Numbered from the stretch's first letter, positions 11,690-55,086 are shown. The stretch is DNA of 64,000 nt from Candidatus Obscuribacterales bacterium (GCA_019744775.1 JAIETZ010000004.1:434001-498000), one strand, 5' to 3'. Notes: a model not told the origin generated them from the letters alone. A program made the numbers and translations.

Positions 11690-14600
11690 TTGAAGGTGCC
11701 TAAACTACTTATTTGCTTGCTAACCCTGCAGTTCGCTGTGGGGCAGTTGTGTCTCCCGGCGTCAGCGCAAGACGCACCGGCAGCTCCGCCGACAAATAAT
11801 CTCGACCTTGGTTCCGCTGACAAAACTGTCGCGGCATCGACAGTTATACAACCAGCAGCTCAAGCAACGATCAATCTTGGAGCGAACGCGGTTACCTATA
11901 CTTCAACAGACATGTTGACGGCAGCGGAAATGGTCGCTGTCCGTCAGGTACTTGCTACAGGCACACAATATCTCCAATTGAACGATCAAGGTGTCGCCGT
12001 CGGGGGCGGACTGCATTTACATTACTATGCCAATAACCTAAACAACTTGGTCATTCCGGAAGGCGTGCGCGCTTCGCAAAATGCCGCCGTACTGAGTTCG
12101 TTGAACCTAACAGGCAATCTAGCAAATTCAGGCACGTTGAATATTTTCTCCAATAATCCGGCTGTAACAGCAGCAACCATCAACGCCAACAACATCTACA
12201 ACAATGTTGGAGGACTCATCAATTCCAGTCTGGCGACATTGAATGTGAATGCCGTCAACAACATCGTCAATAATGGCACGATTATGAGCGCCGGTAATTT
12301 GAATATGACTGCCGGCGGTAGCATCGTAAATACGGCCGTTATGCAAGCCATGAGCGCAATAAATCTCGCATCAGGCGCTGGTAACATCGTCAATTCCGGA
12401 CTTATCTCATCACTTACGAGCAATATAAGCGTAAGCACGCAGACTATAAATAACCTGCTCGTCAATAACACAGGCGGCGTCATGCAAGCACTCAACGGCA
12501 GCATCAACGTGCGTGATGTTTTGTACAACGCTAAATCGAACACGTCATTAACAGGTGGCGATTGGTTGTCACAAACATTGAATACACATTCCGGCAATGG
12601 CATCGTTGATATAAACGTGGATAAACTAACCGGCAAGTTGAACGTCTATGCCGGTGAAGTGCATGTGCAGGCGGCAACAGACAATTTGCTCTTAGGGGAC
12701 ATGATAATCATTGGTGACCCCACTTATTACAACACTTTGGGCGACGTGACCATTGGCGGTAGCTTAAGTTTTTCCGGACAAGCTCTGGCAATTGTGGCCA
12801 ATCAGAATATCGTCACGACTTCCGGAGCAGGCGCAATAGATACAAGTTCAGCTACAAGCAATGGCGGCAGAATACTCATGTATGCCGGAGTGGCATTTAC
12901 ATCGAATGGTCCAGCGCAAGCAAATAACGACACAACATCGACACTGGCAATTACAGGTGTCTCAAGCACTGGCGGAAAAATCGATCTCAATACAGGAAGT
13001 GCAATTACTTCATTGACTTCACGAGGCGCAACCTCTTCAGGAAATGGCAACGGTGGCGCCATTCAACTGGCAGCATTTAAAGGCAGCAATTCAGATTCAG
13101 GAACAATAACACTGCCTTCAGCAGTAACAATCACATCAGGCGGTGGCGGGTCAGGCACTAACGGCCTTGTGCAAATGCTGGCTGAAGCAACAAGTGGTGT
13201 AGGTATAAGCGTAGGCGCAATAGATACGACCGGTGGCACAGGCACTGCTTCCGGTGCCGGTGCAATTACGCTGCATGCTGATGCAGCAGCATTCGGAATG
13301 TTTCCCACTTCCATCACCAACGGAGTCGGTGGCAGTATCGGAACAGTTTCAGATTTAGGCACTTCAACAGCTTCTGTAATTACAGGCGCGCTAACGACAA
13401 TCTCGACAGGAGCAAACTCAGCTCCCATAAGTATCGTCTCTGGCGGCAATGTCTTCATTAACGGCAACGTTACCATGAACAGTCTTGCCAGTACGACAGC
13501 GTCCAACAGCTTCTCAGTCAAGCTAATCAGCTCATCAGCATTTACCATCGGTGCAGGCGCATCCGGAACCGGCATTAACGGAAGTATTACATCTACTCCA
13601 GGAACTTCTGCTCCTGGAGCTTTGGTAAGTGTGACGAACAGCGGAACGGGCGGTATCACACTAAGTAATCCAGCCAATATCAGCAAAGCTGCAACTTCCG
13701 GTGCCGGCGGTAACTTAACGCTATCAGCACTACAAGGTCCTTTGTCCATTGGAGCAGGGACATTATCAACCAACGCTGCGGTATCCGGCACAGCCGGCAC
13801 CATGACTCTATACGGCACGACAATCACTGTGACCGGTGGTGGTGTTCTCAACCTCAATGCTAACAGCGTTGGAGCAGGGACAGGCGGCGTGGTAAATATT
13901 ACAGCGAGCGGGGCTGGTTCTTCATTGACTTTCGCCAACGTTGGCGGAGGCATGATTGTCCAAGCAACAGGTGGCGCAACCAGTGGTGGTGGCGGTACAG
14001 TAACAGCTTCTGCGGGAGGCAATATCACTTATAACGCTGCAATCACAATCGCTCCTAATGCTACTAATGGAGCAGGCGGCAACGTTACACTGAAGGCTGG
14101 TACGGCAGGAGCAGGTACCTTAAGCATCTCCAATGGATTATCTGTTAGCGCCAACGGTTCCGGAGCTGCTGGCACCCTTATACTTCAAGCTAGTTCACAA
14201 AGTGCGCTGACTATTGGAAACAACTTAACGGCATCTGGCGGTACCGGTGGCACCATTAAAATTGCTAACATCGGTATCGGCGGAATCGACTTCACAATTA
14301 CCAATGCTCTAACGGCAACTGCAACTGGTTCAAGTGGGGCAGGAGGCACAATTATCGTCGACGCAGGAGTTTTAGGAGGAATTACTGCGGTCTCCGGGAC
14401 ATGGTCCGCAAGTGCAAGTACAACAGGAGGCGCAAGTGGAGCCGGTGGAACGATTACAATCAACAGCGCGGCTCTTGTCGTTAGTGGCGGCGCACTTACC
14501 ATCAGTGCTAATGGTGCGCAGTCTGGTGCGACGAGTAAGGGTGGAACTATCTCAATTACTAACACTGCCGCAACAGCAAACTTCACAGTGGGCTCCGGCT

Positions 14601-17600
14601 CCGGTCAAGTAATTATTTCAGCAGTTAGTGGAAACGCCTCACTTGCCGCTGGTGGCATAGTGACAATTTCAACCTCACGAAACCTGACAATCGATCCTGC
14701 GTCGCTAACTGTAGTAAACAATGGAACTGAAGTTACGGGCGGTATTCTGACACTTTCTGCAGGCACGGCAGGACAAGGCAATTTATACATTAACGGCAGT
14801 TTGAATGTCAGTCCGTTTTCTTGCTCGTGTGGTTCAAATGGTGGCACTATCACTTTAAACTCAAACAGTAGTACCACTTTCACAGTAGGAGCAGGTGCTA
14901 CAACCAATGGTGTTAACGGGACGCTAACATCAAATGCGGGTAATATCGGCAGCACGGCTGGAACAATCAATATAACCAACCTGGGAACTGGCGGTATAAC
15001 AATTCTCGATCCGGCAAATTTGTTAGTAGGCTCCAATCTTGCCGGAGCAGGTGGCACAATTAAGTTAGAGGCACCAAACGGGCCACTAGCATTCTCCACT
15101 GGTGGAACACTTTATGCCAGTTCAAGTTCAGCAAGTACACCTAATGGCGGATTCATTACTCTTTATGCACAAACCATAAGCGTGTCGGGAGGAACAGCAC
15201 TTACCGTAGCTGCTAATGCTGGTGGTGGCACAGGCGGCATTGGCGGCACAATATCCATGACGGCGCTAAATCCGACTGCCAGTCTTACAATTGGTTCTGC
15301 CAGCGGTCAGTTTATCGTATCAGCAATAGGCTCAGGAGCCTCCGGCGCAAAAAATGGCGGAATAGTCACTATCTCCTCAGGCGGCAACTTAACCATTAAT
15401 ACCGCGAACCTGACTGCTGAGGGCACCGCGAATGGCGCAGGACCTCAACTTACATTTACGGCAGGGACCGGCGGTTCAGGCAATCTATTTATCAACGGTA
15501 CATTGAATGCGCGCGGTAACGGCTCAGGTACTGGTGGCACCGTCATTCTCAATTCCAGCAGCAGTACGACTTTCAATATGGTTTCAGGCGCTACGACTAA
15601 CGGCGTAAATGGAGCCGTAAATGTACAGTCTCAATCAAGCGGTGCCGGCGGCACGCTGCGTGTGAGAAACTTTGGGTCTGGTGGCATTTCAGTTGGCGGT
15701 ACAAGTAGCTTCAACTTAGCAGCCGTATCAGGAGCTGGCGGCACACTAGAATTAAATGCCGGTACGGGCACTCTCAACTTCGCCGCAAATACCATAATGG
15801 ACGTAAATGCTGCAAGCAGCGGGCTTGGCGGCACAATAACTCTTACAGCAGGAAATATTACAGGCTCAGGCAACATGGATTTACGAGCTGACGGAGCAAG
15901 TTCAAGCAATGGCGGAAACGTTACAATAACGACAACCAACGCAGGAAGTGCTTTAACAATTGGAACGGGAACCGCAGAATTCCAAGTTACGGCTCGGTCT
16001 GGTACATCCGGTGGAAACGGCGGCGTGGTCAACTTTTCCGCTGGCGGCAACGTTACAGGTGCCACCGCTTCGCTCACCATTGGACCTCGCGGCACCAACG
16101 GAAACGGCGGACAACTGACACTTACAGGCGGCAGCAACGGCTCTGGCAATGTATTCCTAGACAATTCCTTTAGCGCCACAGGCAATGGAACTGGAAACGG
16201 TGGTTCAATTACAATTAGTTCCAATAGCAGTACAGCTTTCACCTTAAGCAACGGTGCAACCGTTAACGGAGTTGGCGGCGGCTCTCTAACTGCAACTGAC
16301 GGTTCAACCGGAAGTGGTACTACACTGGGAGGCACCATTTCAATTACCAACCGCGGCACTGGCGGTATCACTTTTACTGCGACAGGCTCCGTGACCGTAA
16401 ACCAAGGAGCAGGTTCCGCCAAAGGTGGAACGATCACGTTGAATGCCGGCCCTGGTGTTCTGACAGTCCCTGGGGGAACAACTATATCAGCCAATGGTAC
16501 AGGTACGTCGTCAAATGGTTTTAACGGCGGGACGATTACAATTACAGCGTCGTCTCTATCCATATCCGGCGGCACACTGACACTACAGGCAAACGCTAAT
16601 TCCGCAGGTTTGAGTCCGGGTGGAACGATAAACGTCACAACCACAAGCAGCGCTTACGACATCGTGGTCGGCAGCGCAACCGGAAATTTGGTATTACAAG
16701 CAATTGCCAGCAATTGCTCCGGATGCTCAGGTATTGCCCGTGGTGGCAATGTTAGCCTCACATCAGCTTCAGATATAACTATAGCCCCCGCCTCACTAAA
16801 TATAAACACTACCCAATCAGGCAGCGGCGAAGGCGGTACTCTCAGTCTTGTTGCAGGGACTTCAGGGATGGGCAACGTATTCATTAGCAGCGGACTGTCA
16901 GTGGATGGACATAATGCCGGTGGCGGCGGCACAATCACAATTGTCACCAATAGTGCATCACCATTCACCGTGGGCACCGGAGCTTCTACCAATGGTATTA
17001 ACGGAGTCCTCAGCGCTCAATCCGGCACTTTAGGCGGCAACCAATGGGGCGGTGGAACAATTTCAATTACAAATAATGGAAATGGTGGCATAACACTGGT
17101 CAGTACAAGTAGTTTGACAGTAGCCGGTAACGGTTCAAACGCATATGGCGGAAATTTAACTCTGAATGCAGGACAAGGCATCTTTACCACACCCACAGGC
17201 ACACTCTCAGTCAATGCTATCGGCAATTCATTCGGCAATCCTGGTGGAACAATAAGCATTACTGGCTCTCATCTCAATGTAACTGGTGGTGCTCTTACAC
17301 TTACTGCCAATGCCGGTAGCAATGGATTCGGCGGTACGATCACACTGACGCAAACAAGCAACACATTAGATCTAGCCATAGGAACCGGCACTGGACAATT
17401 CATCCTTTCAGCAACAGGAGCGAGCACATCAGGTCAAGGCGGCACCATCAATCTCTCCTCCGGAAGGAACCTAACAATCTCAACAGGATCCATAACAGCA
17501 AATCCAGGCACAAACGGAAAAGGCGCTACTTATTCGTTTACAGCCGGTGCTACCGGCTCAACCGGTAATCTATATATCAATGGCAGCCTCTCTGCCAACG

Positions 17601-20600
17601 GTGTGGGTTCATTGGGACAAGGTGGTTCTGTTACCTTAGTATCGCGTAGCTCGACAACCTTCAATGTCGCAGGCGGCGCTACAACTAATGGAGTAGCTGG
17701 ATCGATTTCAGCTGACAACAGCAGCTCATCGGCAACACCCGGAACAATTTCAATAACCAACAATGGCACGGGCGGCATTACTCTTGGCGCCCTCTCAAAT
17801 TTATCCGTCAATGCAGCAGGGGTAACAGCGGACGGCGGCAGCATTACATTGAATGCAGGCAGTGGCACGCTAACTCTTCCAAGCGGCACACTTTCCGTCA
17901 GTGCTATCGGAAGTTCAACAACTAATGATGGAGGCACACTAAACCTTACAGCTCAGCAGTTAGCTATTACTGGCGGTAATCTTTCTTTGACAGCCGACGG
18001 TCAATTGGCAGGCAATGGTGGAACCATATCCGTAACCACAGCCAGCTCCACATATGACATTGTTGTAGGCTCAGGCAGCGGACAGATTTCGATATCAGCA
18101 ACCGGGGGAGACATTGGAAGCAGCAGTGGCAATGCAGGAACCGTCACCATATCTTCCGGAAATGATCTAACCATTACCCCCTCCAGCCTTGTAGTCACAT
18201 CCTACAGTTATGGCACAACAGGCGGCACCCTGAATCTGACCGCAGGCACCGGAGGAACGGGTAATCTCTTTGTCAATGGAAGTCTCAGCGCATCCGCAGG
18301 CTCGGTCTTATTTGGAGCTGGTGGTGGCACAATAAATATCACCTCACGAAGCTCGACTGCCTTCACGATTAATGCCGGCGCAACAACGAATGGTATCAAT
18401 GGTACGCTAACGGCATCAGCCGGAATACAAGGCAATGGCGGAACAATTTCCGTCGTCAACCTCGGTACAGGCGGTGTAACCGTCACATCGTTAGCGAATA
18501 TTTCTGTTGCCGCAGGCGTTCTTACCGGTAATGGCGGCTCATTAACTTTGAATGCCGGATCAGGAACTCTGACTGTAGCATCCGGAACAATCTCCGTATC
18601 CTCAGCCACAGGAAATGGTGGCACCGTTACTCTATATGGCACCCCAATTACAATTACCGGCGCAAGCGCACTCACAATAATGGCCAATGCCGGCGGGACA
18701 GGCAACGGCGGACAAATATTTGTTACTACCTTGGGCGCAACTACTGATGTGACGACTGGCACAGGCACGGGACAATACTTCCTTTCCGCCAACGGCGGAT
18801 CGCCATTTTCGGCATCCGGCAATGCCGGCAGTATTGTATTGATTGCTGGCAGAAACGTTACTAGTGCGAATGATTCAATTGTGGCACAGCCATTAGGGCT
18901 GAGTGGAAACGGAGGAACACTTAGTCTTACAGGTACAGGGAATGTATATGTTGGCAATACCCTATATCAAATAGGCAAGGGTACCGGCAACGGAGGAACC
19001 ATCTCTCTATCAAGTACTAGTTCGACTGTCTTCAATATTGCATCAGGAGCAACTACAAATGGCGTCAATGGCTCACTCGTTGCAGGTGCGGGTATTACAT
19101 CGGGAGATGGCGGAGCAGTCATCGTTCGTAATTTGGGATCCGGTGGTGTGACGCTCAGCGACACAAATAATTTCACAGTTTTACCATCGTATGGAGGCGG
19201 TGCGGGAGGGACGCTAACCTTACAAGCCAGCGGAACCTTAACGCTTCCCGGCACTACAACAGGTGCCTATTTTGTCAGCGCAACAGGCACCGGCAATAAA
19301 TCCGGCGGAAGTGTCACCCTTATTGGCGCACCAATCACTCTTACATCCAGCAGCCAACTCTCAATTCGCGCCGATGCCAGAGGGACAGGAGCCGGTGGCA
19401 CAATTACAATTACATCAGGTGGTAGTACATCCGATCTCACAGTAGGTGCTGCAAATATTTTCTTGTTGTCCGCAATGGGCGGTTCGGCAAATTCAGCAAG
19501 CGGCTCAGGTGGATCTGTAACAGTTACAACCGGCAGAAATCTTACGGTAGATCCAGCGTTAATTACCTACAATCCGCAAGGACTAAACGGAAATGGCGGT
19601 CAAATTTATTTGCAATCTGGTCTATCCGCCTCAGGAAATCTTGTAATAAGTTCATCGATATCAGCCAACGGCAAAGGCACGTCCTTAGCGGGAATAGTTT
19701 CCTTGACTACGAATAGCTCAACTACATTCAATATCGGTACCGCCGGCACAAGTGGTTTAACTGGAACAATTTCAGCCAATTCGGGATCCTTCGGCGGCAG
19801 CGGGGGCACAGTCTATGTACAGAATTCCGGTACCGGCGGCATAACACTTCCTTCTGCTGTTAATATATCGGTTAATGCATTAGGAACTGGAGGAGCTGGC
19901 GGAGGTATCACCTTAAGGGCAGACTCGGGAGCCCTTACATTGACTTCGGGTGTATTGTCGGCCAACGCAGCAGGCACAGGCAACTACGACGGTGGCACGA
20001 TATTACTGCGTGCTAACTCATTCTCCATTTCCGGAGGCGCCTTCACAGCAAACGCCAACGGTGTTAATAGCGGAAATGGCGGATTCATCACAGCAACGAC
20101 CTTATCGTCCACAGCAAGCGGTGCTATAACAATTGGCTCAGGCAGCGGCAATTTAGTCTTGAATGCAACAAGCGGAAGCGTTGGAGGAGGTGGCGGCAAA
20201 GTCACCGTCACCGCCGGACAAAATCTCAATGTCAACACTGGCTCTCTTTCGGTAGCCACCCTCGGTCCCAATGGCAATGGTGGAACTATCACGCTTACAA
20301 CAAGTGCCGGACTAATGTTAATCACCGGCACACTTTCAGCCAATGGTGTTGGTACAGGAAATGGCGGTTCTATAACTTTGAATATTCACAATAGTAGCAG
20401 CACATACTTTGTAATTGGCGGCGCATCAACCAATGGCATCACCGGAAATCTAACAGCAAATGCAGGCTCCAATTATGGCAATGGTGGTTCAGTAACAATT
20501 AACGACTATCAAAATTGGGGCTCACAACTGACGGCAACGTCAAATATTTCCGCGGCTGCTTCAGCAGGTGGTGGCAACGGCGGCACGATTAAGATTATAG

Positions 20601-23600
20601 CTTTCGGCACAAGCGATCTACAACTTCCCACTGGCACGCTATCAGTTGACGGACAAGGCAATGGAAATGGTGGCACAATCGAATTCAATACATTCTACTT
20701 TAGCGGAACTCCAACCACAACTCTTTTCGCAAATGGCGATGGCTACGGTAATGGTGGTTCTATTAGCCTGACTGAAACACAGGGAGGTAGTCGATTTATT
20801 ACTGTAGGTCCAAGTGGATTTACAATTGCCGCCAATAGCGGTGCATCCGGCGGCAATGGCGGCACTGTCTATCTTAATGCGGCCGGCTCAGCGCTTACAG
20901 TCAACATGTTGTGGCTAACTGCTGATCCTTTAGGCACAAACGGCAACGGTGCAAACTATACTTTCATAAACGGAAGTAGCGGATCACTCGGCGCACTGCA
21001 AATAACGGGAGACGTCAATGCAAATGGCGTCGGCAATGGCAACGGCGGCTCAGTAACAATCATTTACTCAGATGCCACCAATCCGTTTACCGTTGGCACA
21101 ACAAGCAGTCAATTCGTCTCAGGGGATATATTTGCCAACGCACCGACTACCGGCAATGGTGGCTCTATTTCAATTACAAATACTTATGCTACTGGTCCTC
21201 TCACTGTAAACATGACGGACAACATTACTGCCAATTCCGGCAGCGGCACGCTGGGCACAGTGACCTTCAACAAGTCCGGACAAGCGGTGTCAGTAACAGG
21301 TAGTGGTCAATTGATAGGCAATGTAATAGCAACAGGAGCATCAGTAACCTTATCTCCACAATCAGGACTAACGGCAAAAACGATAACATCATCAGCCGGC
21401 AATATCTTGTTATCTGTTAACTCCGGCGCCCTCGCACTAGCAAGCTCTGCAGCACTGTCAGCCACTCAGGGTAGCATAACTATCCAAAACAACGACACTA
21501 CGACAGGAACCATAGCGATTGGTGCAAACTCCACTATCTCTGCAACCTCTACCACTTCCGGACAGGGCAGAGTCAATATAGTCATAGGCTCTGTTCCTGG
21601 CTCACCTGTTGCAGGCATTCAGCCTAGCAATTTCACAGCAAATCTAACCAATGCCGGAACAATCTATTACGGCAGTCCTAACTTTACGTCAAATTCCCCA
21701 ACCAACACGGCCAACGTAGATGGTGGAAGAGTCCTCTTCAACAACACGGGCAGCATCGGTGCAACCGCAGTTACTTTGAATGGTGGCGTTGTCATCAATT
21801 CAACTGCACCTGGACTTCCAGTCTTAACCAGTCTTGACCTTACAGATCCTTCCATCACATCGTACATACAAACTCAACAAGGATTGGGCACACTCGGTGG
21901 TACTCTCATTCTTTCCAGCGGCGTCGCGCAACCAGGCAGCACACTTACAATTCAACCCGGCAATTTGTCAGCGTCACTTTCGTCATTTAACATCCCAGCT
22001 GGTGTCGTCGTCACAATGGACTCCTTCACCGGCTCCAATACAATCACCATCGACATAACTGGTAGCAGCTTCACCACACAAGCAACCCTCACCGGAACAA
22101 CCGCATTCGGCTCCGGCTCCGGCACCCTCGTAATCAACTCCACACAAGCCGGCAATGCATTCCTAATCAACTCCGCTGGTGTCCTAAGCAGCACAGCAAC
22201 TCTCGACATTTCAACGAACAGAAGTGCAAGTATCGCCGGCACAATTACAGCTACAACACTAAATATCACCACAACTGCAAACAACGGCGCCATAAGCGTA
22301 ACGGGAAGCATCACAGGTTCTGCCGGAGTCAACCTAACAACTAATGGCACCGGTAACGTCACCAGCGGTGTATCGTCGTCTATTCTAGCAACCAATAATC
22401 CAATTACAATTACTGCAAATGACGTTGCTTTCTCCGGCTCCGTAAATGCTGGAACAGGCACAGTGACTCTGAAACCAAACAGCACGCAAACCATGTCTCT
22501 GAACGGAGCTGGCGGAACATTCTCAGTGCTTTCGACTGATTTAAACAACATCATTGCCGGGACAATGGTCCTTGGCTCCAACACCAATTCAGGAACTATC
22601 ACTCTTGCAGGCGCACTAACACTGCCAGGATCAGGCTCAGCTGGAACGACCGCCGGTCTCTACAATCTGGAACTCAGAAGCGGAGCTGCCGGTGGCACAT
22701 ATTCAGCCGGTTCAAATGCATTGAATGTCAGAGGACAAAACCTAACAATCAACGTTGCCGGTAGTGCCAATACAGGAAGCGGCGGAATCTCCGGAACCTC
22801 CGGCACCGTAGCAATCACCGGTGGTGGCGTGACTCTTGGTGCAGCAATCACATTATCCGGCAACGGCACAATCAACCTTACTGCTACAGGCAGCACTAAT
22901 CTCACCATGAATGGCAATGTTCAAACTGCATCGGGCGGGCAAATCTTGTTAAACACCGGAACTGGGGGATTCAGTCAGGGTGCCAATATCTCGACGGGCA
23001 GCTTAGTCTTTACCAGCACAAGCGGCTCCGCATCCCTGAATACAACCGTTAGCAACTTTACAGCCAACACAACCGGCAGCATCAACCTAACAAATACAGG
23101 TGCTCTAATAATTGGCCCGGCAGGGACTACTAGCACAGCCAACACCTTCACCGTATCGAATAATCAAACAATCACTGTGAACGGTGGCATTACAGCAAGT
23201 TCTATTTCCGGTGTATCTCTGACAACAACTGCCAACAGCGGCAATATAGACGTCAACGCCGATGTTACAGGAGGCGGTATTACATTCAGCACCAATGGCA
23301 ATGGCATAGTGACAAATGCTGCCTTAACAGATATCGAAGCAACTAATGGAACACTGCAGATAACAGCCAGCAACGTACTTTTCAACGGCACCCTGACTGG
23401 TCCTAACGATGTCCTACTTCTCGCCAATGGCAGTATTCCAGTGGTTATAGGCGGTACCAGCGGTACTTTCAACGTTACAAGTTCTGTGATAAATGCTGTA
23501 ACCGCTAACAACCTACTAATCGGTTATGGTTCGAGCATGACCGTAGTCGGTCCTGTGGATGTCTCAAGTGCAAACTTCAACGGATTCTACCTTCAACCGA

Positions 23601-26600
23601 CCGGAAGTTACTCGGCTAACGGACAAACGATGACAATTGGTGGCAAGACATTGAGTGTTCAAAATTTAGGGTCAGGAAGCATCGATACCGGAGCGGTTAC
23701 CGGCAACAGCAGTTCTAGTATTACCTTCAGCGCTTCTTTGTCTTTAACAGTCTCAGGAGCTATTACTGGCGGCGACATGCAATTCTCTAACAGTTCTGGA
23801 AACATGACATTTGCAGCAGGCGTATCAGGCACTTCAATAAACACCAACAGCCCCGGTGAAATAATTCAAAGTTCGGGAACTATTGCAGGAACAAGTCTAA
23901 ATCTTAATGCCACCAATGGTATTGGACTTCTAAGTCCTATTCAAACGGCTATTACTTCGCTCATAGTGAATACGGGGTCATCTTCTAGCGCTTTCATTTC
24001 TAACGCTGGAGCATTACAGATAAATTCATCCACCGTCGGAAATCAATTCCAAGTAGCCACAACAGGAGCAAGCGCAAACATTACAGTGAGCGGTACAGTA
24101 ACTGCAACCAATGGACAGCTTCAACTAAGCGCAAATGGCAATATAACCACCAATGCCGCAATTTCCGGAAACACCTTGACTCTCCAAACGTTAACCGGCA
24201 CCAACGGTACTATTGCTCTTAACCATAACGTAACCGGAACTAATGGAGTTACGATCACCACAAACGGAAATGGGAACGTCACAAACGCAGTTACTCGCTC
24301 AATAACCGCTACAAACGCTTCAATTTCCATCACCGCTAATGATGTAATTTTTAGCGGTTCGGTCAACGCGGGCACAAGCGGATCAGTTTCACTGATACCA
24401 AATGGTGCTAAAGCTATTACCGTCGGCGGAGGCGCTGCAACTTTCAATGTCAGCTCCACAGAGCTTGCTGCGATTACTGCTGGCACTTTAACGATCGGCA
24501 CAACGGCTCAAGTAGGCGGCTTCACCGTAGGTGGCAATTTGAATGTTTCCGGCGCAGGTCCAGCCGGTGCTTACAACTTGGTGTTCAACAATGGCGGCAA
24601 TTACACAGCAGCTGGTCGAACAATCACGTTGGGTACTAAGACGCTGACAGTCAATGCTCTAGGCACTGTAACTACCGGTACAGTGACAGGTGGCAATACA
24701 ACAGTACTGATTACATCAGGTACCGGAACTACCGTTTCGAATGCTGTGACTGTCACCGGTGGCACAGTTACTCTTAATACGACCAACAATGGAAGCATTC
24801 TCATTACTGCCAACGTAGGCGGCGGCGCAACTACTAATATAGATGTGCACGGTTCTGGCAATATCGATCTGGCAGGCAGTGGCTACAACGTTACAGGTAC
24901 CACAGTAAATCTTTCATCGGATAACGGCATCATAGGCACAACCGGTGGTGGAGTACCGACAATAGCCGGCACGTTGACAATAAACGGCGGCAGTGACGCA
25001 CTGGTTACAAATACCGGAGACGTAATACTCGGCACCTCGGCTACCGGTGGTTATCTGAGACTAATTACTGCAACAGCCGGTTCAGACATCAGCACGTCAG
25101 GGACAGTAGCCGCGACTGGTGCACTTATATTGGAAGCAACAGGCAACGTCACAACAAGCAATCCAATCTCCGGCGATGAGGTAAGAGTAACATCCAATGA
25201 TGTATCATTTGGCGCCACCGTTACTTCACCTAACCTCATTTGGCTTCAACCGTCAGGCAGTCAGTCAATCTCCATCGGTGGAGCAGGGGGTACGTTCAGC
25301 GTATTGAATTCGGACTTGGCACAAATGAGTGCGCCGAGAGTGATTATTGGGTCGAACACAACTCCTGGAAATATTACTGTAACGGCAGGCGTAAATATTT
25401 CAGCCCGGAATTACGACTTACAAATAGAAACCGCCGGAACTTATTCTGCTGCTGGTCAAACGGTGACTCTCGGCGCAAATGACCTTAGCGTAACCTCTAC
25501 CGGTACACTCAATGCCGGCACAGTAACCAGCACAGGTGGTCAAATATCCCTGACAGGGGCAACCGTTACCGCCGCTGATTTAACAACGGCAAACAATGGC
25601 AGTGGCTTCTCCGGTAACGTTTCTATTGTCTCTGGTGGCACTGTCACGGTGTCGGATATCTCTACGGGCTCCACTTCAACAGCTATTGCAGGCGGCATTT
25701 ATATAACCGCTGTCGGCGCAATCACTACGGACACACTGAGCACAAATACCAATTTAAATGGCGTTGGAAATCCTAACGCATCGGGAAGTGCCGGCGGTGA
25801 GATTCAACTGGAAAGCAACAGCGGCACCTTCAATCTCAATTCCATAAATACATCCAGTGGTGGCAGCACCGCAGGCGAATTGACATTTTCGCAAAACGGT
25901 AGTGTGTTAACAACGCCGACTGTAACCTTTGCTACAAATTCCAACATCACCATGAAGAGTGTCAGTTCCAGCACCGGACCGTCTGTATCAATTAACTTAG
26001 CCAACGCAAATACACTTGGAAGCATAGATACATCAAACAATGGCAGCGGTGTCTCGGGCAATGTAAATTTGACGTCCGCCAGCTCTATAACTTTAGTAGA
26101 CATTCATACTGGATCTGTCGGCACAGCTCAAGCCGGTACCATTACGATCAATTCCGGCGGTGCGGTTAACGTAAGAGACCTATGGGCAAGTACTAGTACC
26201 AATGGAGTCGGAAATCCCAACGTGGTAGGCGGTGCAAGCAACAACATATTAGTGATCGCCACCACATCTATCACCACACGCGACCTTAACGCCAATGTAG
26301 CAGGCTCTAATGCAGCCGGTACTGTCACCTTATCCGCAGGCGGCGCGATTATCACAAGTGATGTTTTCACTGGCTCCACAGGCAGTGGAGTCGCCGGCAC
26401 CATCACCATGACTGCAGGTGGCTCTATCACAACAGACACCCTTAACACAAATACGAACTTAAACCCAGTCGGAAATCCTAACGCCTCTGGTAGTGCCGGT
26501 GGTGACATCACGTTGGACAGCAGCACCGCCACCTTCAGCCTTAATTCCGTTAACACGGCTAGCGGCGGCAGCACAGCCGGAGCCTTGATATTCAAGCAAA

Positions 26601-29600
26601 ACGGTGTTGTGCTGGGAACGCCGACCGTCACTATGGCTACAAACTCAACAATCACCATGAGCAGCGTCAGCTCCTCTAGTGGACCTTCTCTATCACTTAA
26701 CCTAGCCAACTCCAATACACTCGGAGCCATAACCACATCCAACGCTGGCACCGGTGCAGCAGGTGACCTTACCTTGACCTCCAGCGCATCAATCACGACG
26801 GGAGCTCTAACTGCCACTTCAGGAGGCGCTCTGGGTGGTGATATAACCGTCACATCAACAACTTCTACGGTAGCCACAGGAGCGATCACAACAAGCAATG
26901 CGGCAGTGACGATTACTGCCAGCGACGTGTCCCTAACTAGTGCAGTCAATGCCGGTACTGGTACCGTCAGCCTCTTGCCAAATAGCGCATTGTCGATATC
27001 AGTTGGTGGATCAGGAGGCAGCTTCTCCGTACTCGCAACTGATTTAGCAAACATCACTGCAGGCACTCTAGTTGTCGGCACTACATCTCTAGCCGGTGAT
27101 TTTACAGTGGCAGGCAATCTTAATGTCTCAGGAACAGGCGCCGGCAAGTACAATCTAGAGTTTAATACTGGTGGTAACTACACGGCCGTTGGTCAGACAA
27201 TTACTCTAGGCACCAAAACGCTCACTGTTGCCGCGCTAGGCACATTGAATACAGGAACAGTGACCGGCGGAAATTCGACAGTGCAACTAACTGGTGGCAC
27301 AGGTATGACTGTGTCGGGCGCAATTACATCGACAGGTACTGTAAATCTCGACACCACCAACAGCGGCTCCATCTCCATTGGTGCCAATATTTCTGCACCT
27401 ACGTTGGATGTAACTGCTGATGGTGCAGGAACAATTACCCGCTCTGGTAATTTCACATTGACGGCTACTACGTTGACGCTGGCTTCGACCTCCGGTGACA
27501 TTGGTCAATTCGGCACTCCGCTTCTGACTGATTCCACTTCGATTACAGCTTCGACAGCCGGCTCCATTTACATTACAGAAACCGGGAACGTAAACCTATC
27601 TTCATTTACTGTCGGTTCGGGTAAAACTCTTCAGCTTTCGACAACCGCTGGTGGTTCGATCATTGTTGACACCAATTTGACGACGGCAAGCACAATTTTT
27701 CTTGATGCTGATGGAGCCGGAACAATTACACGGTCTGGTAATTTCAACTTGTCGGCTACCTTGATCACGTTAAGTTCAGACACCGGCAATATTGGTCAAG
27801 CAGGAACACCATTGAAAGCTGACGCTGTCGTACTTATCGTCTCTACAGGCGGTTCAATATACTTAAATAGCAGTACAGATTTGGCTACAAGTTCATTTAC
27901 TGTTGGTGCCAATCAGACACTCGATCTTTCAACTTCAGCCAACGGCTCTATATTGGTTGACACAGATGTCACTGCCGACACAATTCGACTGTCGACCGCT
28001 GGTAACGGTGATATCACACGCGCGGGCAATGTTACTCTCACTGCCAACACTATCGCCTTGAGCACGTCGTCAGGTAATATTGGTGACTTTGGCACAGAAC
28101 TTCAAACCAATGCCGGCACTCTAACGATTTCGACCGGTGGATCCGCTCTTATCAATGAAGCCGATTCGGTCAATCTTGGTGCTTCAAACATTAGCGGCAC
28201 GCTTGAATTAACTACAACTGGCAACGACGGTAGTATCACCGTAACGGGCAATGTCTCAGCCACAAGCATGCTTCTGTCCACCGATGGTGTCGGAGAAATT
28301 CAGCGTTCGGGCAACTTTACTCTCAGCGCAACAGCCGTAATCAACTTAGGTTCAGACAACGGCAATATAGGAACATCATCGTCGCCACTGCTAATTGATA
28401 CAAACACGATAACCATTCAGACAGGTGGTTCAGTCTTACTCAGAGAAGACGATAGCATCAACCTTGGTTTTACAAATGTCGGTGGCACGCTTGAACTCAC
28501 AACTCTAAATGGTGGTGATATTGTCTTATCAAGCACGATAACAGCCACATCAATGACGCTCACTGCCAATGGCGCCGGCTCAATTCTCGACGGCGGTAGT
28601 GGCTCTTTGTCAGCTACATCTGTAATCAATCTCGCTTCAACATCCGGCGATATTGGTGCATCGGGCAACGAGATAAACACCAGCACAAGTACCCTCACTG
28701 CTAACACCTCGGGCAACATATACATAATCGAAGTCGATAGCGTTAATCTCGGATTTACTAATGCAGGCGGAGTACTGGAACTTACAACAACTGCCAACGG
28801 CACTATCACTCTGTCGGATCAAGTTACAGCCACAACAATGATACTAACAGCTAACGGAACAGGCGAAATTCTCCGTGGCGGTACGCAAACAATTTCCGCC
28901 AACACTATGACGCTAAGTTCGACACTGGGCAATATCGGTAGCCCAACGACTCCAATACTTACAGATGCCGGCGTACTGACAGTAAATACAGCTGGACATT
29001 CCTATGTCGTCAACACCAACAGCTTGACCCTAGCTAATTCCAACGTAGGCGGAACACTTTCACTATCAACCAACGGAACCTTGACCACGTCAACCGCCAA
29101 CAGTGCTCAAACGCTCGATTTGACCGCTGCTTCAGTAAACAATAGCGCAACTCAAACAGCTACCGGTCCGACAGGAACCATAACAATAACTGGAGCAGGC
29201 GGTTCAAGCGTTACGATAACCGGAGGCGGTACACTAGCCGGCGCAGGCGGTATAAACATCAACGCTACCACCAACGATGTGATTTTCGCAGGCAGTCAAA
29301 CTTTTAACGGCAATGCATTTATAGATGCAACTGGTACTTCTGGTGATGTGATTGCAGCCAACGGAGTGACCGTATTCAGCAATGCCAACATGACTGTTAA
29401 CAGCACAACACCAGTTGTAAACACGGCAGCTTTCGGCGCAGCAGGAACTCTTTCAATCAATGCTGGTCCTCCTGTACCGCCGACGCCTCCTACGCCAACT
29501 TCTGAAGAAACCACAAGCCCGACTTTAATAGCAATAGTTGCTGATGCGTCCAGCGCCAGCACATCGGCTTTCCAAACAAGAAATGATCCCATTGTAATTT

Positions 29601-31393
29601 CAACAGACCAAAACCAAGGCATCGCCGGCAACAGCTTGTCACAAGCCTTGCTTAACAACGTTACCAACGGACTATCAACAATCTTGTTCGGCGGCGGCGG
29701 TTCTACAGCTGCACCAAGCAGCACCATATTGAACAGCAACGTCATTTCCAATGCTCCAAATCCCGGACCGATAACAGGTAGCAGCATCAACAATTCAACT
29801 AACAGCAACACCATCGTAACAAGCGATGTCGATCTCACACCATTTGCCGATTTGTTGCCTACTGGAGACACGACTGTCAGCGGGCAAATTGTTGACAGCA
29901 AAACAGGAAATATAACTGCCGGAAATTTGCCAAATGAACTATCAGCGACACCTGGCACAATAGTTCCATCACGTAGTCCATCCGACAACCAGAGCGGACA
30001 GAGCAATCCTCTAAGTTCGCTGGGTGAGATGTTCAAGGTTGGCGAAACACGCACAAATTTAGTCATGTTCACGATGGCGAACCAAGTATTCTCCGGATTC
30101 ATCGGCGGCAATAACGACACTATGGTCAGCGGCACACCAGGAACCATATTCAGCACTGACAAAAATACTGTTGTTCTACATACCGGCCACATGCTAACCG
30201 ACAACGGGAAGCAAGGCATGACCGTATTCACAAATCAAGCTGCCGTAATGATTGGAGCAGATGCCGCAGCAGTTGTTGATGTTCATCCAGGCTCTCCTAC
30301 TCGTGTAATGGCTGTTGCCGGACAGGGAAGTTCATCGACCACAGTGCGCACGAGAGACGGTTTGGTTATTCCATTAGCGGCCGGGCAAGAGGTGATCATC
30401 GGACAAACAGACTTGTCCGATGAAGACCTCATTCCGGTCGATGGCATGGATCGTGAATTCGTCTCCGGCGGAATCCAGGTCGCTAGCCGTAAAGTCGCTA
30501 AGGACAATTTCTCGCTCGATGAATTCATGGACAAGGAAATCATGGTTGCGGGAGTTCCTGTAAGACTAGGCGGCAACAACAAGAGATTGCATGGAAAGAT
30601 TAGCGCTGCCGCCAAGAGAGCACGCAACACAAATATTGCCGCCAATTACCGCAAGAAGAAAAAAGGCGATGACGACAGCGAAGATGAAGAAAAGAGCGCC
30701 CCAATCATAACCAAGGCTCCGGATGGGCAAGATGTTGTTGAAGAGTCCAGCGAACCAGCTAGAGTACTAGCCGAGAAAGAAACGCAATTCAGTCTGACAC
30801 AGCCGGGAAGAATGCAGTTACTTAAAGGCTCTCTATTCATGCACAATGCTGACCCTACTATTGTCGATACCCCATTAGGTCAGGTCCGCGGCGTCAAAGA
30901 TTCTATGTTCAAGGTATCCTCCGGCGACGGCACGACACGCGTCCAAGCTATGTCTGGTCCTGACGAAGTATCTGTTATTGCCGGCAAACGTCTGATACCT
31001 CTCAATTGCGGCAAAGAAGTCTTTATAACTGATCACAAACCGAATCAGTCGGAATCCGTTCCGGCTGACGGGGTAGGACGTAGAGGAATGTCGGCATTTT
31101 CTCTCGATGGAGCATTGAGTGCAATTGTTGGTGACTTCTCGATGGTCACATTGCTTAACAGCACACAATTCTTGAATCCACTGAAACACCCAGTGTCTCA
31201 AAGTGATCAACAATTACATGAACAAATAGTCAAGGCTGCTGCTGTTATTCAGCACGTACTCGGCAATCGCGGACGCTATTACATTGCTCCCAAGGAGCGA
31301 GCCTCACTGCCAATTCCCGAGTGGGTGATAAAGACGACTGGCAGCAAGCAGGACAGCACGCAGTTATTGAAGGCAATGCTAAACGCCCAGTAA
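11690..31393 (+). CDS. Giant secreted repeat protein, filamentous-haemagglutinin-like, with C-terminal FecR-like modules (6567 aa)
   Basis: One uninterrupted frame of 6567 codons, starting at TTG. A signal peptide (residues 1-26, ASA/QD) is followed by a haemagglutinin/TPS-like N-terminal region (about 30-330, with LTAAEMVAVRQV and the NSG/NNG-rich turns of beta-helices). Three repeat zones follow: about residues 600-3150, 3570-5140 and 5240-5800, each rich in Gly, Thr, Ser, Asn and Ala with almost no Cys or Trp. These predict a very long right-handed beta-solenoid. A Pro-rich linker (about 5926-5944) leads to two FecR-like modules (about 6113-6238 and 6365-6448) separated by a Lys/Asp/Glu-rich segment, and then a basic C-terminal tail. 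Such proteins act as adhesins or surface filaments. No TpsB transporter, beta-barrel or LPXTG anchor is seen, so the export route past the inner membrane is unknown. Confidence 0.88.
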   Translation: MKVPKLLICLLTLQFAVGQLCLPASAQDAPAAPPTNNLDLGSADKTVAASTVIQPAAQATINLGANAVTYTSTDMLTAAEMVAVRQVLATGTQYLQLNDQGVAVGGGLHLHYYANNLNNLVIPEGVRASQNAAVLSSLNLTGNLANSGTLNIFSNNPAVTAATINANNIYNNVGGLINSSLATLNVNAVNNIVNNGTIMSAGNLNMTAGGSIVNTAVMQAMSAINLASGAGNIVNSGLISSLTSNISVSTQTINNLLVNNTGGVMQALNGSINVRDVLYNAKSNTSLTGGDWLSQTLNTHSGNGIVDINVDKLTGKLNVYAGEVHVQAATDNLLLGDMIIIGDPTYYNTLGDVTIGGSLSFSGQALAIVANQNIVTTSGAGAIDTSSATSNGGRILMYAGVAFTSNGPAQANNDTTSTLAITGVSSTGGKIDLNTGSAITSLTSRGATSSGNGNGGAIQLAAFKGSNSDSGTITLPSAVTITSGGGGSGTNGLVQMLAEATSGVGISVGAIDTTGGTGTASGAGAITLHADAAAFGMFPTSITNGVGGSIGTVSDLGTSTASVITGALTTISTGANSAPISIVSGGNVFINGNVTMNSLASTTASNSFSVKLISSSAFTIGAGASGTGINGSITSTPGTSAPGALVSVTNSGTGGITLSNPANISKAATSGAGGNLTLSALQGPLSIGAGTLSTNAAVSGTAGTMTLYGTTITVTGGGVLNLNANSVGAGTGGVVNITASGAGSSLTFANVGGGMIVQATGGATSGGGGTVTASAGGNITYNAAITIAPNATNGAGGNVTLKAGTAGAGTLSISNGLSVSANGSGAAGTLILQASSQSALTIGNNLTASGGTGGTIKIANIGIGGIDFTITNALTATATGSSGAGGTIIVDAGVLGGITAVSGTWSASASTTGGASGAGGTITINSAALVVSGGALTISANGAQSGATSKGGTISITNTAATANFTVGSGSGQVIISAVSGNASLAAGGIVTISTSRNLTIDPASLTVVNNGTEVTGGILTLSAGTAGQGNLYINGSLNVSPFSCSCGSNGGTITLNSNSSTTFTVGAGATTNGVNGTLTSNAGNIGSTAGTINITNLGTGGITILDPANLLVGSNLAGAGGTIKLEAPNGPLAFSTGGTLYASSSSASTPNGGFITLYAQTISVSGGTALTVAANAGGGTGGIGGTISMTALNPTASLTIGSASGQFIVSAIGSGASGAKNGGIVTISSGGNLTINTANLTAEGTANGAGPQLTFTAGTGGSGNLFINGTLNARGNGSGTGGTVILNSSSSTTFNMVSGATTNGVNGAVNVQSQSSGAGGTLRVRNFGSGGISVGGTSSFNLAAVSGAGGTLELNAGTGTLNFAANTIMDVNAASSGLGGTITLTAGNITGSGNMDLRADGASSSNGGNVTITTTNAGSALTIGTGTAEFQVTARSGTSGGNGGVVNFSAGGNVTGATASLTIGPRGTNGNGGQLTLTGGSNGSGNVFLDNSFSATGNGTGNGGSITISSNSSTAFTLSNGATVNGVGGGSLTATDGSTGSGTTLGGTISITNRGTGGITFTATGSVTVNQGAGSAKGGTITLNAGPGVLTVPGGTTISANGTGTSSNGFNGGTITITASSLSISGGTLTLQANANSAGLSPGGTINVTTTSSAYDIVVGSATGNLVLQAIASNCSGCSGIARGGNVSLTSASDITIAPASLNINTTQSGSGEGGTLSLVAGTSGMGNVFISSGLSVDGHNAGGGGTITIVTNSASPFTVGTGASTNGINGVLSAQSGTLGGNQWGGGTISITNNGNGGITLVSTSSLTVAGNGSNAYGGNLTLNAGQGIFTTPTGTLSVNAIGNSFGNPGGTISITGSHLNVTGGALTLTANAGSNGFGGTITLTQTSNTLDLAIGTGTGQFILSATGASTSGQGGTINLSSGRNLTISTGSITANPGTNGKGATYSFTAGATGSTGNLYINGSLSANGVGSLGQGGSVTLVSRSSTTFNVAGGATTNGVAGSISADNSSSSATPGTISITNNGTGGITLGALSNLSVNAAGVTADGGSITLNAGSGTLTLPSGTLSVSAIGSSTTNDGGTLNLTAQQLAITGGNLSLTADGQLAGNGGTISVTTASSTYDIVVGSGSGQISISATGGDIGSSSGNAGTVTISSGNDLTITPSSLVVTSYSYGTTGGTLNLTAGTGGTGNLFVNGSLSASAGSVLFGAGGGTINITSRSSTAFTINAGATTNGINGTLTASAGIQGNGGTISVVNLGTGGVTVTSLANISVAAGVLTGNGGSLTLNAGSGTLTVASGTISVSSATGNGGTVTLYGTPITITGASALTIMANAGGTGNGGQIFVTTLGATTDVTTGTGTGQYFLSANGGSPFSASGNAGSIVLIAGRNVTSANDSIVAQPLGLSGNGGTLSLTGTGNVYVGNTLYQIGKGTGNGGTISLSSTSSTVFNIASGATTNGVNGSLVAGAGITSGDGGAVIVRNLGSGGVTLSDTNNFTVLPSYGGGAGGTLTLQASGTLTLPGTTTGAYFVSATGTGNKSGGSVTLIGAPITLTSSSQLSIRADARGTGAGGTITITSGGSTSDLTVGAANIFLLSAMGGSANSASGSGGSVTVTTGRNLTVDPALITYNPQGLNGNGGQIYLQSGLSASGNLVISSSISANGKGTSLAGIVSLTTNSSTTFNIGTAGTSGLTGTISANSGSFGGSGGTVYVQNSGTGGITLPSAVNISVNALGTGGAGGGITLRADSGALTLTSGVLSANAAGTGNYDGGTILLRANSFSISGGAFTANANGVNSGNGGFITATTLSSTASGAITIGSGSGNLVLNATSGSVGGGGGKVTVTAGQNLNVNTGSLSVATLGPNGNGGTITLTTSAGLMLITGTLSANGVGTGNGGSITLNIHNSSSTYFVIGGASTNGITGNLTANAGSNYGNGGSVTINDYQNWGSQLTATSNISAAASAGGGNGGTIKIIAFGTSDLQLPTGTLSVDGQGNGNGGTIEFNTFYFSGTPTTTLFANGDGYGNGGSISLTETQGGSRFITVGPSGFTIAANSGASGGNGGTVYLNAAGSALTVNMLWLTADPLGTNGNGANYTFINGSSGSLGALQITGDVNANGVGNGNGGSVTIIYSDATNPFTVGTTSSQFVSGDIFANAPTTGNGGSISITNTYATGPLTVNMTDNITANSGSGTLGTVTFNKSGQAVSVTGSGQLIGNVIATGASVTLSPQSGLTAKTITSSAGNILLSVNSGALALASSAALSATQGSITIQNNDTTTGTIAIGANSTISATSTTSGQGRVNIVIGSVPGSPVAGIQPSNFTANLTNAGTIYYGSPNFTSNSPTNTANVDGGRVLFNNTGSIGATAVTLNGGVVINSTAPGLPVLTSLDLTDPSITSYIQTQQGLGTLGGTLILSSGVAQPGSTLTIQPGNLSASLSSFNIPAGVVVTMDSFTGSNTITIDITGSSFTTQATLTGTTAFGSGSGTLVINSTQAGNAFLINSAGVLSSTATLDISTNRSASIAGTITATTLNITTTANNGAISVTGSITGSAGVNLTTNGTGNVTSGVSSSILATNNPITITANDVAFSGSVNAGTGTVTLKPNSTQTMSLNGAGGTFSVLSTDLNNIIAGTMVLGSNTNSGTITLAGALTLPGSGSAGTTAGLYNLELRSGAAGGTYSAGSNALNVRGQNLTINVAGSANTGSGGISGTSGTVAITGGGVTLGAAITLSGNGTINLTATGSTNLTMNGNVQTASGGQILLNTGTGGFSQGANISTGSLVFTSTSGSASLNTTVSNFTANTTGSINLTNTGALIIGPAGTTSTANTFTVSNNQTITVNGGITASSISGVSLTTTANSGNIDVNADVTGGGITFSTNGNGIVTNAALTDIEATNGTLQITASNVLFNGTLTGPNDVLLLANGSIPVVIGGTSGTFNVTSSVINAVTANNLLIGYGSSMTVVGPVDVSSANFNGFYLQPTGSYSANGQTMTIGGKTLSVQNLGSGSIDTGAVTGNSSSSITFSASLSLTVSGAITGGDMQFSNSSGNMTFAAGVSGTSINTNSPGEIIQSSGTIAGTSLNLNATNGIGLLSPIQTAITSLIVNTGSSSSAFISNAGALQINSSTVGNQFQVATTGASANITVSGTVTATNGQLQLSANGNITTNAAISGNTLTLQTLTGTNGTIALNHNVTGTNGVTITTNGNGNVTNAVTRSITATNASISITANDVIFSGSVNAGTSGSVSLIPNGAKAITVGGGAATFNVSSTELAAITAGTLTIGTTAQVGGFTVGGNLNVSGAGPAGAYNLVFNNGGNYTAAGRTITLGTKTLTVNALGTVTTGTVTGGNTTVLITSGTGTTVSNAVTVTGGTVTLNTTNNGSILITANVGGGATTNIDVHGSGNIDLAGSGYNVTGTTVNLSSDNGIIGTTGGGVPTIAGTLTINGGSDALVTNTGDVILGTSATGGYLRLITATAGSDISTSGTVAATGALILEATGNVTTSNPISGDEVRVTSNDVSFGATVTSPNLIWLQPSGSQSISIGGAGGTFSVLNSDLAQMSAPRVIIGSNTTPGNITVTAGVNISARNYDLQIETAGTYSAAGQTVTLGANDLSVTSTGTLNAGTVTSTGGQISLTGATVTAADLTTANNGSGFSGNVSIVSGGTVTVSDISTGSTSTAIAGGIYITAVGAITTDTLSTNTNLNGVGNPNASGSAGGEIQLESNSGTFNLNSINTSSGGSTAGELTFSQNGSVLTTPTVTFATNSNITMKSVSSSTGPSVSINLANANTLGSIDTSNNGSGVSGNVNLTSASSITLVDIHTGSVGTAQAGTITINSGGAVNVRDLWASTSTNGVGNPNVVGGASNNILVIATTSITTRDLNANVAGSNAAGTVTLSAGGAIITSDVFTGSTGSGVAGTITMTAGGSITTDTLNTNTNLNPVGNPNASGSAGGDITLDSSTATFSLNSVNTASGGSTAGALIFKQNGVVLGTPTVTMATNSTITMSSVSSSSGPSLSLNLANSNTLGAITTSNAGTGAAGDLTLTSSASITTGALTATSGGALGGDITVTSTTSTVATGAITTSNAAVTITASDVSLTSAVNAGTGTVSLLPNSALSISVGGSGGSFSVLATDLANITAGTLVVGTTSLAGDFTVAGNLNVSGTGAGKYNLEFNTGGNYTAVGQTITLGTKTLTVAALGTLNTGTVTGGNSTVQLTGGTGMTVSGAITSTGTVNLDTTNSGSISIGANISAPTLDVTADGAGTITRSGNFTLTATTLTLASTSGDIGQFGTPLLTDSTSITASTAGSIYITETGNVNLSSFTVGSGKTLQLSTTAGGSIIVDTNLTTASTIFLDADGAGTITRSGNFNLSATLITLSSDTGNIGQAGTPLKADAVVLIVSTGGSIYLNSSTDLATSSFTVGANQTLDLSTSANGSILVDTDVTADTIRLSTAGNGDITRAGNVTLTANTIALSTSSGNIGDFGTELQTNAGTLTISTGGSALINEADSVNLGASNISGTLELTTTGNDGSITVTGNVSATSMLLSTDGVGEIQRSGNFTLSATAVINLGSDNGNIGTSSSPLLIDTNTITIQTGGSVLLREDDSINLGFTNVGGTLELTTLNGGDIVLSSTITATSMTLTANGAGSILDGGSGSLSATSVINLASTSGDIGASGNEINTSTSTLTANTSGNIYIIEVDSVNLGFTNAGGVLELTTTANGTITLSDQVTATTMILTANGTGEILRGGTQTISANTMTLSSTLGNIGSPTTPILTDAGVLTVNTAGHSYVVNTNSLTLANSNVGGTLSLSTNGTLTTSTANSAQTLDLTAASVNNSATQTATGPTGTITITGAGGSSVTITGGGTLAGAGGININATTNDVIFAGSQTFNGNAFIDATGTSGDVIAANGVTVFSNANMTVNSTTPVVNTAAFGAAGTLSINAGPPVPPTPPTPTSEETTSPTLIAIVADASSASTSAFQTRNDPIVISTDQNQGIAGNSLSQALLNNVTNGLSTILFGGGGSTAAPSSTILNSNVISNAPNPGPITGSSINNSTNSNTIVTSDVDLTPFADLLPTGDTTVSGQIVDSKTGNITAGNLPNELSATPGTIVPSRSPSDNQSGQSNPLSSLGEMFKVGETRTNLVMFTMANQVFSGFIGGNNDTMVSGTPGTIFSTDKNTVVLHTGHMLTDNGKQGMTVFTNQAAVMIGADAAAVVDVHPGSPTRVMAVAGQGSSSTTVRTRDGLVIPLAAGQEVIIGQTDLSDEDLIPVDGMDREFVSGGIQVASRKVAKDNFSLDEFMDKEIMVAGVPVRLGGNNKRLHGKISAAAKRARNTNIAANYRKKKKGDDDSEDEEKSAPIITKAPDGQDVVEESSEPARVLAEKETQFSLTQPGRMQLLKGSLFMHNADPTIVDTPLGQVRGVKDSMFKVSSGDGTTRVQAMSGPDEVSVIAGKRLIPLNCGKEVFITDHKPNQSESVPADGVGRRGMSAFSLDGALSAIVGDFSMVTLLNSTQFLNPLKHPVSQSDQQLHEQIVKAAAVIQHVLGNRGRYYIAPKERASLPIPEWVIKTTGSKQDSTQLLKAMLNAQ
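13541..21130 (+). repeat. Repeat zone A of the giant protein: about 229-residue unit, 12 landmarks
   Basis: A short landmark of the form F-[T/N]-x4-GATTNG-[V/I]-NG recurs in frame. The codons for its first residue lie at 13541, 14207 (a reduced form), 14879, 15572, 16238, 16964, 17660, 18362, 19031, 19727, 20408 and 21086. The spacings are 666-726 bases (222-242 residues; mean about 229). Between landmarks the order of sub-motifs is conserved: GGTI-type strands, GTGGIT, NAGSGTL, ISGG-LTL-NA, then VGSGSG and GNLFINGSLSA. DNA identity between units is visibly lower than protein similarity, so the units are old. They do not look like recent recombination products. Confidence 0.85.
22421..27105 (+). 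repeat. Repeat zone B of the giant protein: about 290-320-residue unit, 5 landmarks
   Basis: A second landmark (N-D-V-x-F/L, then a SGSVNAGT-like strand and a GGxGGTFSVL segment) recurs in frame, with its Asp or Asn codon at 22421, 23372, 24341, 25199 and 26924. The spacings are 317, 323, 286 and 575 residues, the last probably two units with one landmark lost. Inside it, 25730-26050 and 26435-26755 (offset 705 bases) are a clear internal duplication sharing NPNASGSAGG and a following GGSTAG segment. Confidence 0.8.
27400..29080 (+). repeat. Repeat zone C of the giant protein: about 96-residue unit, 6 landmarks
   Basis: Short units are marked by S-x-[S/D]-x-G-[D/N]-I-G, with the D/N codon at 27497, 27788, 28076, 28364, 28649 and 28931. 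The spacings of 291, 288, 288, 285 and 282 bases (94-97 residues) are much more regular than in zones A and B. Each unit also carries a TRSGNF/QRSGNF-like strand before the landmark and a VNLG/FTVG strand after it. Confidence 0.85.
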
Positions 31394-51207: not shown

Positions 51208-51291
51208 AATGTGATGCCTCGATATTAGTAAGAAAATGATGGCGATAAGCAATATCTGCCCCAAAAGAAGGTAGGCAGAGCGTTTACAAAG

Positions 51292-55070: not shown

Positions 55071-55086
55071 CTTTTATCACCTCCAC

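Follow-up and report, generated by a model that had tools for sequence, protein, structure and literature searches.

Giant, probably exported proteins of Candidatus Obscuribacterales end in modules of predicted FecR-like fold

We analysed a stretch of 64,000 nucleotides from a Candidatus Obscuribacterales bacterium (GCA_019744775.1 JAIETZ010000004.1:434001-498000, one strand, 5' to 3'; "the window"), which contains a giant open reading frame (ORF) whose parts are listed in Table 1. An initial annotation had read this ORF as a haemagglutinin-like protein that ends in two FecR-like modules and has no transport partner. The C-terminal region stands apart in composition, with 22% charged residues in the last 467 residues versus 4% in the shaft. 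Pfam and NCBIfam searches on whole thirds of the ORF gave nothing convincing, phmmer of the ORF against Protein Data Bank (PDB) sequences gave nothing relevant, and profile searches with either end returned no match among the PDB sequences.

Table 1. Parts of the giant ORF, in window coordinates (aa, amino acids; TPS, two-partner secretion; AF2, AlphaFold2).
Feature	Position	Strand	Description
Giant ORF	11690..31393	+	Single uninterrupted frame, 6,567 aa, TTG start, ~631 kDa before processing
Signal-peptide-like N-terminus	11690..11770	+	Most hydrophobic 19-mer of the whole protein, then PASA-QD; from hydropathy and judged by eye
Conserved N-terminal domain, TPS-secretion-domain-like fold	11768..12919	+	Beta-helix core ~12035-12697 in the AF2 model
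Shaft, G/S/T/N-rich, probably a beta-solenoid (predicted)	12920..29450	+	~4% K/R/D/E; 4 cysteines in residues 401-5900
Module 1 (D1)	30047..30628 (approx.)	+	FecR/CJM-fold beta core 30047-30556, followed by a hairpin and helices
Module 2 (D2), C-terminal signature of the family	30704..31258 (approx.)	+	FecR-like beta core 30704-31030, GRR, hairpin, helical tail
C-terminal extension, ~40 residues	31259..31390	+	End gap 36 versus 0-20 in the other 22 family members

The motif VDTPLGQVRG and the strand FKVSSGDGTT, both quoted in the initial annotation, are present at 30863 and 30908, respectively, and lie within module 2. The Pfam family FecR (PF04773) matches module 2 with E 0.049 and 14.5 bits (cut-off 24), does not match module 1, and is listed at E ≤ 1 for one of the 23 members of the module alignment. 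As this match stays below the cut-off and concerns module 2 only, a FecR relationship could not be claimed from sequence evidence alone. We compared profiles made from 30 FecR-domain sequences of loci above the Pfam cut-off and from 23 module 2 copies found across the genome, the window included. Module 2 aligned to the FecR profile in hhalign with a score of 39.2 (P 1.8e-5, 91 columns in register), the best of 100 column shuffles reaching 17.8 and reversed controls a probability of 0.2–0.4%. The corresponding score for module 1 was 32.6 (best of 100 shuffles 17.6), and the two modules matched each other with a score of 97 and a probability of 98%.

The AF2 model of residues 6101–6567, built from 14 sequences (predicted local distance difference test, pLDDT, 76.9; predicted template modelling score, pTM, 0.49), contains two similar modules, each with about 12 strands, a hairpin and helices. 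Foldseek matched this model to PDB entries with E < 0.001 only for PupR (6ovk) and for BDI_1681, a putative anti-sigma factor (4m0n/4m0h), at a best E of 3.6e-5, and VIA gave Z scores of 14.7, 14.6 and 14.4 to 6ovk, 4m0n and 4m0h over 129–130 residues, the next row (unrelated) having 6.2. The alignment with PupR spans 130 residues of module 1 at 16% identity and corresponds to PupR 111–251, the CJM subdomain; the PDB fold match thus falls on module 1, and module 2 is assigned through its homology to module 1 and through hhalign. By profile–profile and structure comparison, residues 6120–6523 are two homologous modules with the predicted fold of the FecR/PupR periplasmic subdomain, plus a hairpin and helical tail. 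The initial proposal of FecR-like modules is thereby borne out, with the refined bounds of Table 1. Two relatives (L080:1-4986 and L081:1623-8495) have six and five FecR-like modules per protein, the family tail being on the last module only. The sole FecR protein above the Pfam cut-off in the genome (contig C5, ~219 kb; L140:5094-9171) adjoins a CHASE2 histidine kinase.

Passages of PMC7186176 describe the periplasmic region of PupR as a CJM subdomain and an STN subdomain (250–324) that together bind an outer-membrane barrel at its periplasmic domain, and place FecR relatives in the periplasm. The CJM beta fold of this region (6ovk; 4m0n/4m0h) is shared by module 1 and, by homology, module 2. 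No STN counterpart was found, the match ending at PupR 251 and a hairpin and helices following in the model; VIA on this model listed no known fold for the helical tail. Hydropathy also revealed no membrane-spanning stretch in the C-terminal part (best 19-residue value of residues 5901–6567, 1.34). In contrast to PupR and FecR, the C-terminal region of the window protein has a hairpin and helical tail instead of a membrane anchor or STN, remains below the Pfam cut-off for FecR, and carries the fold in two copies that end a giant and apparently exported chain.

The C-terminal 467 residues, used as query against the same genome (4.10 Mb, 13 contigs, 97.8% complete), gave 29 matches in 23 genes, so that at least 23 genes carry the module. 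Seventeen of these encode giants of 1,728–25,007 aa (one cut by a contig end), which add up to 113,403 aa and occupy 8.3% of the genome, and six encode short proteins of 230–580 aa, most with a signal-peptide-like start as judged by eye. Module 2 is C-terminal in all 23 genes, 0–36 residues before the stop, while module 1 was seen in seven. The 25,007-aa protein is an uninterrupted frame (C2:174643-249666) with the N- and C-terminal domains of the family and hardly any repeated 30-mers, and is thus not a simple tandem array. Four giants (5,780, 7,414, 3,947 and 10,865 aa) lie head to tail on one strand in 85 kb (C6:20890-105525), and a 3,894-aa giant (C1:179611-191295) has a DUF2345 match over the cut-off at residues 2786–2896.

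In a class-wide search, the module was found in 48 of 146 genomes, 45 from the same taxonomic family and three from a second family of the same order, and none elsewhere; 16 genomes have at least 21 copies each. A phylum-wide sample yielded it in the genome studied here only (0 of 385 others), a search of viral contigs gave no relative, and in plasmid searches the N-terminal domain had a single weak match (E 0.5) and the tail none. Among 14 named matching loci, 11 bear the title Candidatus Obscuribacterales or Melainabacteria; the other three (L069, L070 and L077; SBAT01 records) belong to a metagenome-assembled genome (MAG) that has close family members and is labelled Chloroflexi, a label that is probably wrong. 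Among the genomes sampled, the family is restricted to Candidatus Obscuribacterales, non-photosynthetic relatives of cyanobacteria.

A syntenic orthologue of the window gene is present in a related genome (G140), with 89% identity over 2,658 aa and, as in the window, a YlqD gene and a sigma gene downstream. The ratio of nonsynonymous to synonymous substitution rates (dN/dS) between the two is 0.099 over 2,650 codons. The gene is under purifying selection, and modules 1 and 2 (0.032 and 0.050; shaft 0.111) are the most constrained parts among those compared. Between orthologue and YlqD gene, G140 has a 631-aa frame (L133 4547-6439) with the family N-terminal domain, which looks like a shortened or broken paralogue.

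At the other end of the protein, a hydrophobic N-terminal stretch is present by hydropathy in all 16 giants of the genome with an intact start, and all 16 have one N-terminal domain in common, the 15 others being 30–58% identical to the window copy over the aligned stretch. No convincing Pfam family, and none of the TPS families, was found for this domain in any of the 16 members, and a profile search of PDB sequences returned none. AF2 predicts a beta-helix (pLDDT 66.5, near 90 in the core; pTM 0.70; four input sequences). Foldseek gave weak matches only (E 0.56–9.7), mostly to TPS proteins. In a VIA comparison limited to the 25 chains offered by Foldseek, the top five were TPS secretion domains (Z 21.6, 21.6, 20.4, 20.0 and 18.6; best value per protein 21.6 for EtpA and HMW1 and 20.4 for HxuA), followed by a tailspike (16.5) and a pectinase (15.6). 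As beta-helices resemble one another, we call the domain TPS-like in its modelled fold, not TPS. "Haemagglutinin-like" gains structural content from this fold, and the modules do appear to end a huge, probably beta-helical protein of exported type, as first described.

At the sensitivity used, the genome contains no known translocator that would carry such a protein over the outer membrane. ShlB-type TpsB had no match in the genome, the control matching in four of 14 genomes, none over the cut-off, and POTRA_2 not being searched genome-wide, so that a divergent TpsB may still be present. The single Omp85, which has BamA-type POTRA repeats and one POTRA_2 match, looks like BamA; an Omp85 with POTRA domains is a sign of a diderm envelope. 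SprA, the type IX pore, had no match in the genome, with controls equally silent. A type Va autotransporter was rejected, as the C-terminus has a FecR fold and the Autotransporter barrel has no match in the genome, and so was a sortase substrate, as LPXTG is absent from the ORF and from the last 80 aa of all 17 giants. The genome-wide results thus agree with the initial annotation, which had seen no TpsB, autotransporter barrel or sortase signal in the window. The genome has two secretins, one of them in the window (535–3210, minus strand), where it adjoins a TPR protein and has an STN match below the cut-off (E 0.0016). Considered as exit pore for this STN match, it was rejected: it lies ~8.5 kb from the giant, with unrelated genes between and nothing linking the two.

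Inspected by eye, the genes around family members in the same genome included no obvious partner. When these neighbours were clustered, a repeated family of proteins of ~360–410 aa emerged, with a signal-like start and no convincing Pfam, NCBIfam or PDB match. Their beta-amphipathicity falls in the 93rd–100th percentile of 281 background ORFs (Omp85 barrel of the same genome, 97th), and we refer to them as barrel-like. In a first sample from other genomes, a barrel-like gene was found at six of 20 module 2 loci, in six different genomes, versus none of 20 random 14-kb stretches, and on clustering all ORFs this was the commonest neighbour family absent from the controls. A second sample had it at none of 20 loci; 10 of the 40 stretches of this second sample were ~2 kb or less, which lowers the power, and we count the result as a failed replication. 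Pooled, the samples give 6/40 loci versus 0/20 controls (Fisher p 0.077). Twenty extra random 20-kb stretches from the positive genomes contained one copy, itself 103 nt from a short module 2 gene. By bases, six copies in 491 kb near family genes compare with one in 680 kb of random control (p 0.024). Eleven of 12 full-length barrel-like genes, including the sole copy in the 680 kb of control, have a family gene within ~0–212 nt (for L159 the neighbour is identified from frame coordinates only), and the twelfth is 3 kb away. These adjacency statistics take no account of the genome-wide copy number of the barrel-like family, so that chance adjacency is not properly priced. Two more adjacent barrel-like genes (L067 and L122), from loci centred on module 2, stand outside the p-value counts, and in two genomes (G109 and G001) a short module 2 gene abuts a barrel-like gene on the same strand. 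The survey for a conserved partner next to homologues, proposed initially, has thus given a positive and then a negative sample, and we regard the barrel-like gene as a suggestive lead to a partner rather than a result. That the protein has no transport partner holds for the neighbourhood of the window gene but may be wrong for the family. The common tail of at least 23 genes, the TPS-like N-terminal fold and the barrel-like neighbour elsewhere go beyond the initial annotation.

Taking the two ends together, we give a probability of about one half to the reading that the ORF encodes a lineage-specific giant envelope protein working like a periplasm-retained TpsA (FhaB, HMW1, HxuA), with the FecR-fold tail as periplasmic anchor or stop. 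Like these exoproteins, it has a signal-like N-terminus, a beta-helix of predicted TPS-like fold, a long shaft and a C-terminus suited to periplasmic retention; passages of PMC8263021 describe a C-terminal prodomain of FhaB kept in the periplasm, and passages of PMC5422565 a small C-terminal anchor kept there in HMW1 and HxuA. The family shows this layout with a different tail, whose fold is that of a periplasmic module; in PupR, this module acts with the STN subdomain to bind an outer-membrane barrel at its periplasmic domain. Retention is the economical reading. The giants differ from TPS exoproteins in that no TpsB was found in the genome, the tail fold is unrelated, many paralogues occur per genome and no TPS family matches in sequence.

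We infer the surface location, the direction of export, the anchoring and the partner as follows. The N-terminal signal would direct export by Sec, and the TPS-like beta-helix would start the passage over the outer membrane, so that the solenoid would grow outward as a filament, N-terminus first. The FecR-fold modules, already folded in the periplasm, would then halt transfer and, docked on a partner in the periplasm or outer membrane, keep the filament in place. The translocator would not be an Omp85/TpsB of the kind recognised by Pfam. As docking site or channel, the barrel-like protein is the strongest candidate; it would act in trans for most members including the window giant. Anchoring at an outer-membrane machine, one of two anchors suggested initially, is our best guess; nothing supports the other, peptidoglycan. 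A more far-reaching version, possible but tentative, is an undescribed outer-membrane display system in Obscuribacterales: TpsA-like giants, the largest of 25,007 aa, would be exported with no Omp85-type TpsB and held by a FecR-fold tail docked on a new barrel family unknown to Pfam, so that the pairing of FecR with an outer-membrane barrel in cell-surface signalling would be re-used as a mechanical anchor.

Several points weigh against periplasmic retention of a TpsA-like giant. No TpsB was detected in a genome that is 97.8% complete, and the TPS likeness is structural only, with Foldseek E of 0.56–9.7, no Pfam or profile match and few sequences behind the model. The link to the barrel-like family was not replicated (6/20, then 0/20 loci), that family is a putative outer-membrane barrel by composition, and no barrel-like gene lies beside the window giant.

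The C-terminal module might instead be a sorting signal like the type IX C-terminal domain (CTD), sending giants and small cargo to a dedicated outer-membrane exporter and possibly being removed or attached at the surface. As with type IX CTDs, one conserved C-terminal module stands on many unlike secreted proteins, here 17 giants and six otherwise unlike short ones, and the barrel-like neighbour would suit an exporter. Type IX CTDs have a different fold, however, and the N-terminal domain conserved in all 16 giants with an intact start would be superfluous for a purely C-terminal signal. D1 is internal and some relatives have five to six modules; we consider a sorting signal rather unlikely. 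It is doubtful, too, that the giants form a structural mesh confined to the periplasm or wall, with FecR-like modules that bind envelope partners and no crossing of the outer membrane. The lack of a known translocator and the periplasmic location of FecR relatives (in the passages of PMC7186176) fit such a mesh, but shafts reaching 25,007 aa would be hard to fit in the periplasm and the N-terminal domain resembles a secretion domain.

The FecR fold itself could suggest that the filament senses surface contact and signals to a sigma-factor pathway. FecR/PupR regulators, however, have a transmembrane helix and an N-terminal cytoplasmic anti-sigma domain, neither of which was found here, where the modules are C-terminal and no second hydrophobic segment could span the membrane towards such a domain. 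The fold match stops before STN, and there is no neighbouring pair of extracytoplasmic function (ECF) sigma factor and TonB-dependent transducer: the adjacent sigma gene (31985–33013) has regions 1.2, 2, 3 and 4, like a housekeeping sigma, and Plug of TonB-dependent receptors had no match in the genome (control, three of 14 genomes). Given the absence of membrane anchor, STN and receptor, we reject the sensor role as very improbable. We also reject, as still less probable, that the ORF is repeat DNA in decay or wrongly assembled whose end resembles FecR by chance: the giants are of low complexity and MAG assemblies can err, but the unbroken frame, the syntenic orthologue, the dN/dS of 0.099 and profile scores far above shuffles speak against it.

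LapA/SiiE-type giant adhesins are likewise filaments that a terminal module keeps in the envelope, but they use type I secretion and N-terminal retention and are not known to have a FecR fold. Very long extracellular-type proteins also occur among the giant genes and huge proteins of bacteria treated in PMC11573180, in whose main text the terms cyanobacter, Melainabacteria and FecR are absent. In the literature searched by full text (Obscuribacterales and adhesin; FecR domain, adhesin and filamentous hemagglutinin) and by titles and abstracts, a coverage that leaves out most subscription journals, we found no description of this family. Elsewhere in the window lie a cluster at 48394–62246 (minus strand), with type IV secretion system (T4SS) coupling-protein and TraG/VirB4-like ATPases at 51406–54429 and 55087–57900 and tested neighbours without a Pfam match, and an Eco57I/N6-type DNA methylase, possibly a restriction-modification enzyme, at 40133–42808 (plus strand).

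One twelfth of this genome encodes giants that share a tail. Should the tail serve for retention, it would be a new answer to the problem of holding very large filaments in a diderm envelope, and the FecR fold would gain a structural role outside signalling. The family also makes it testable what carries TpsA-like proteins over the outer membrane without a recognisable TpsB, with the barrel-like neighbour as a concrete first candidate.

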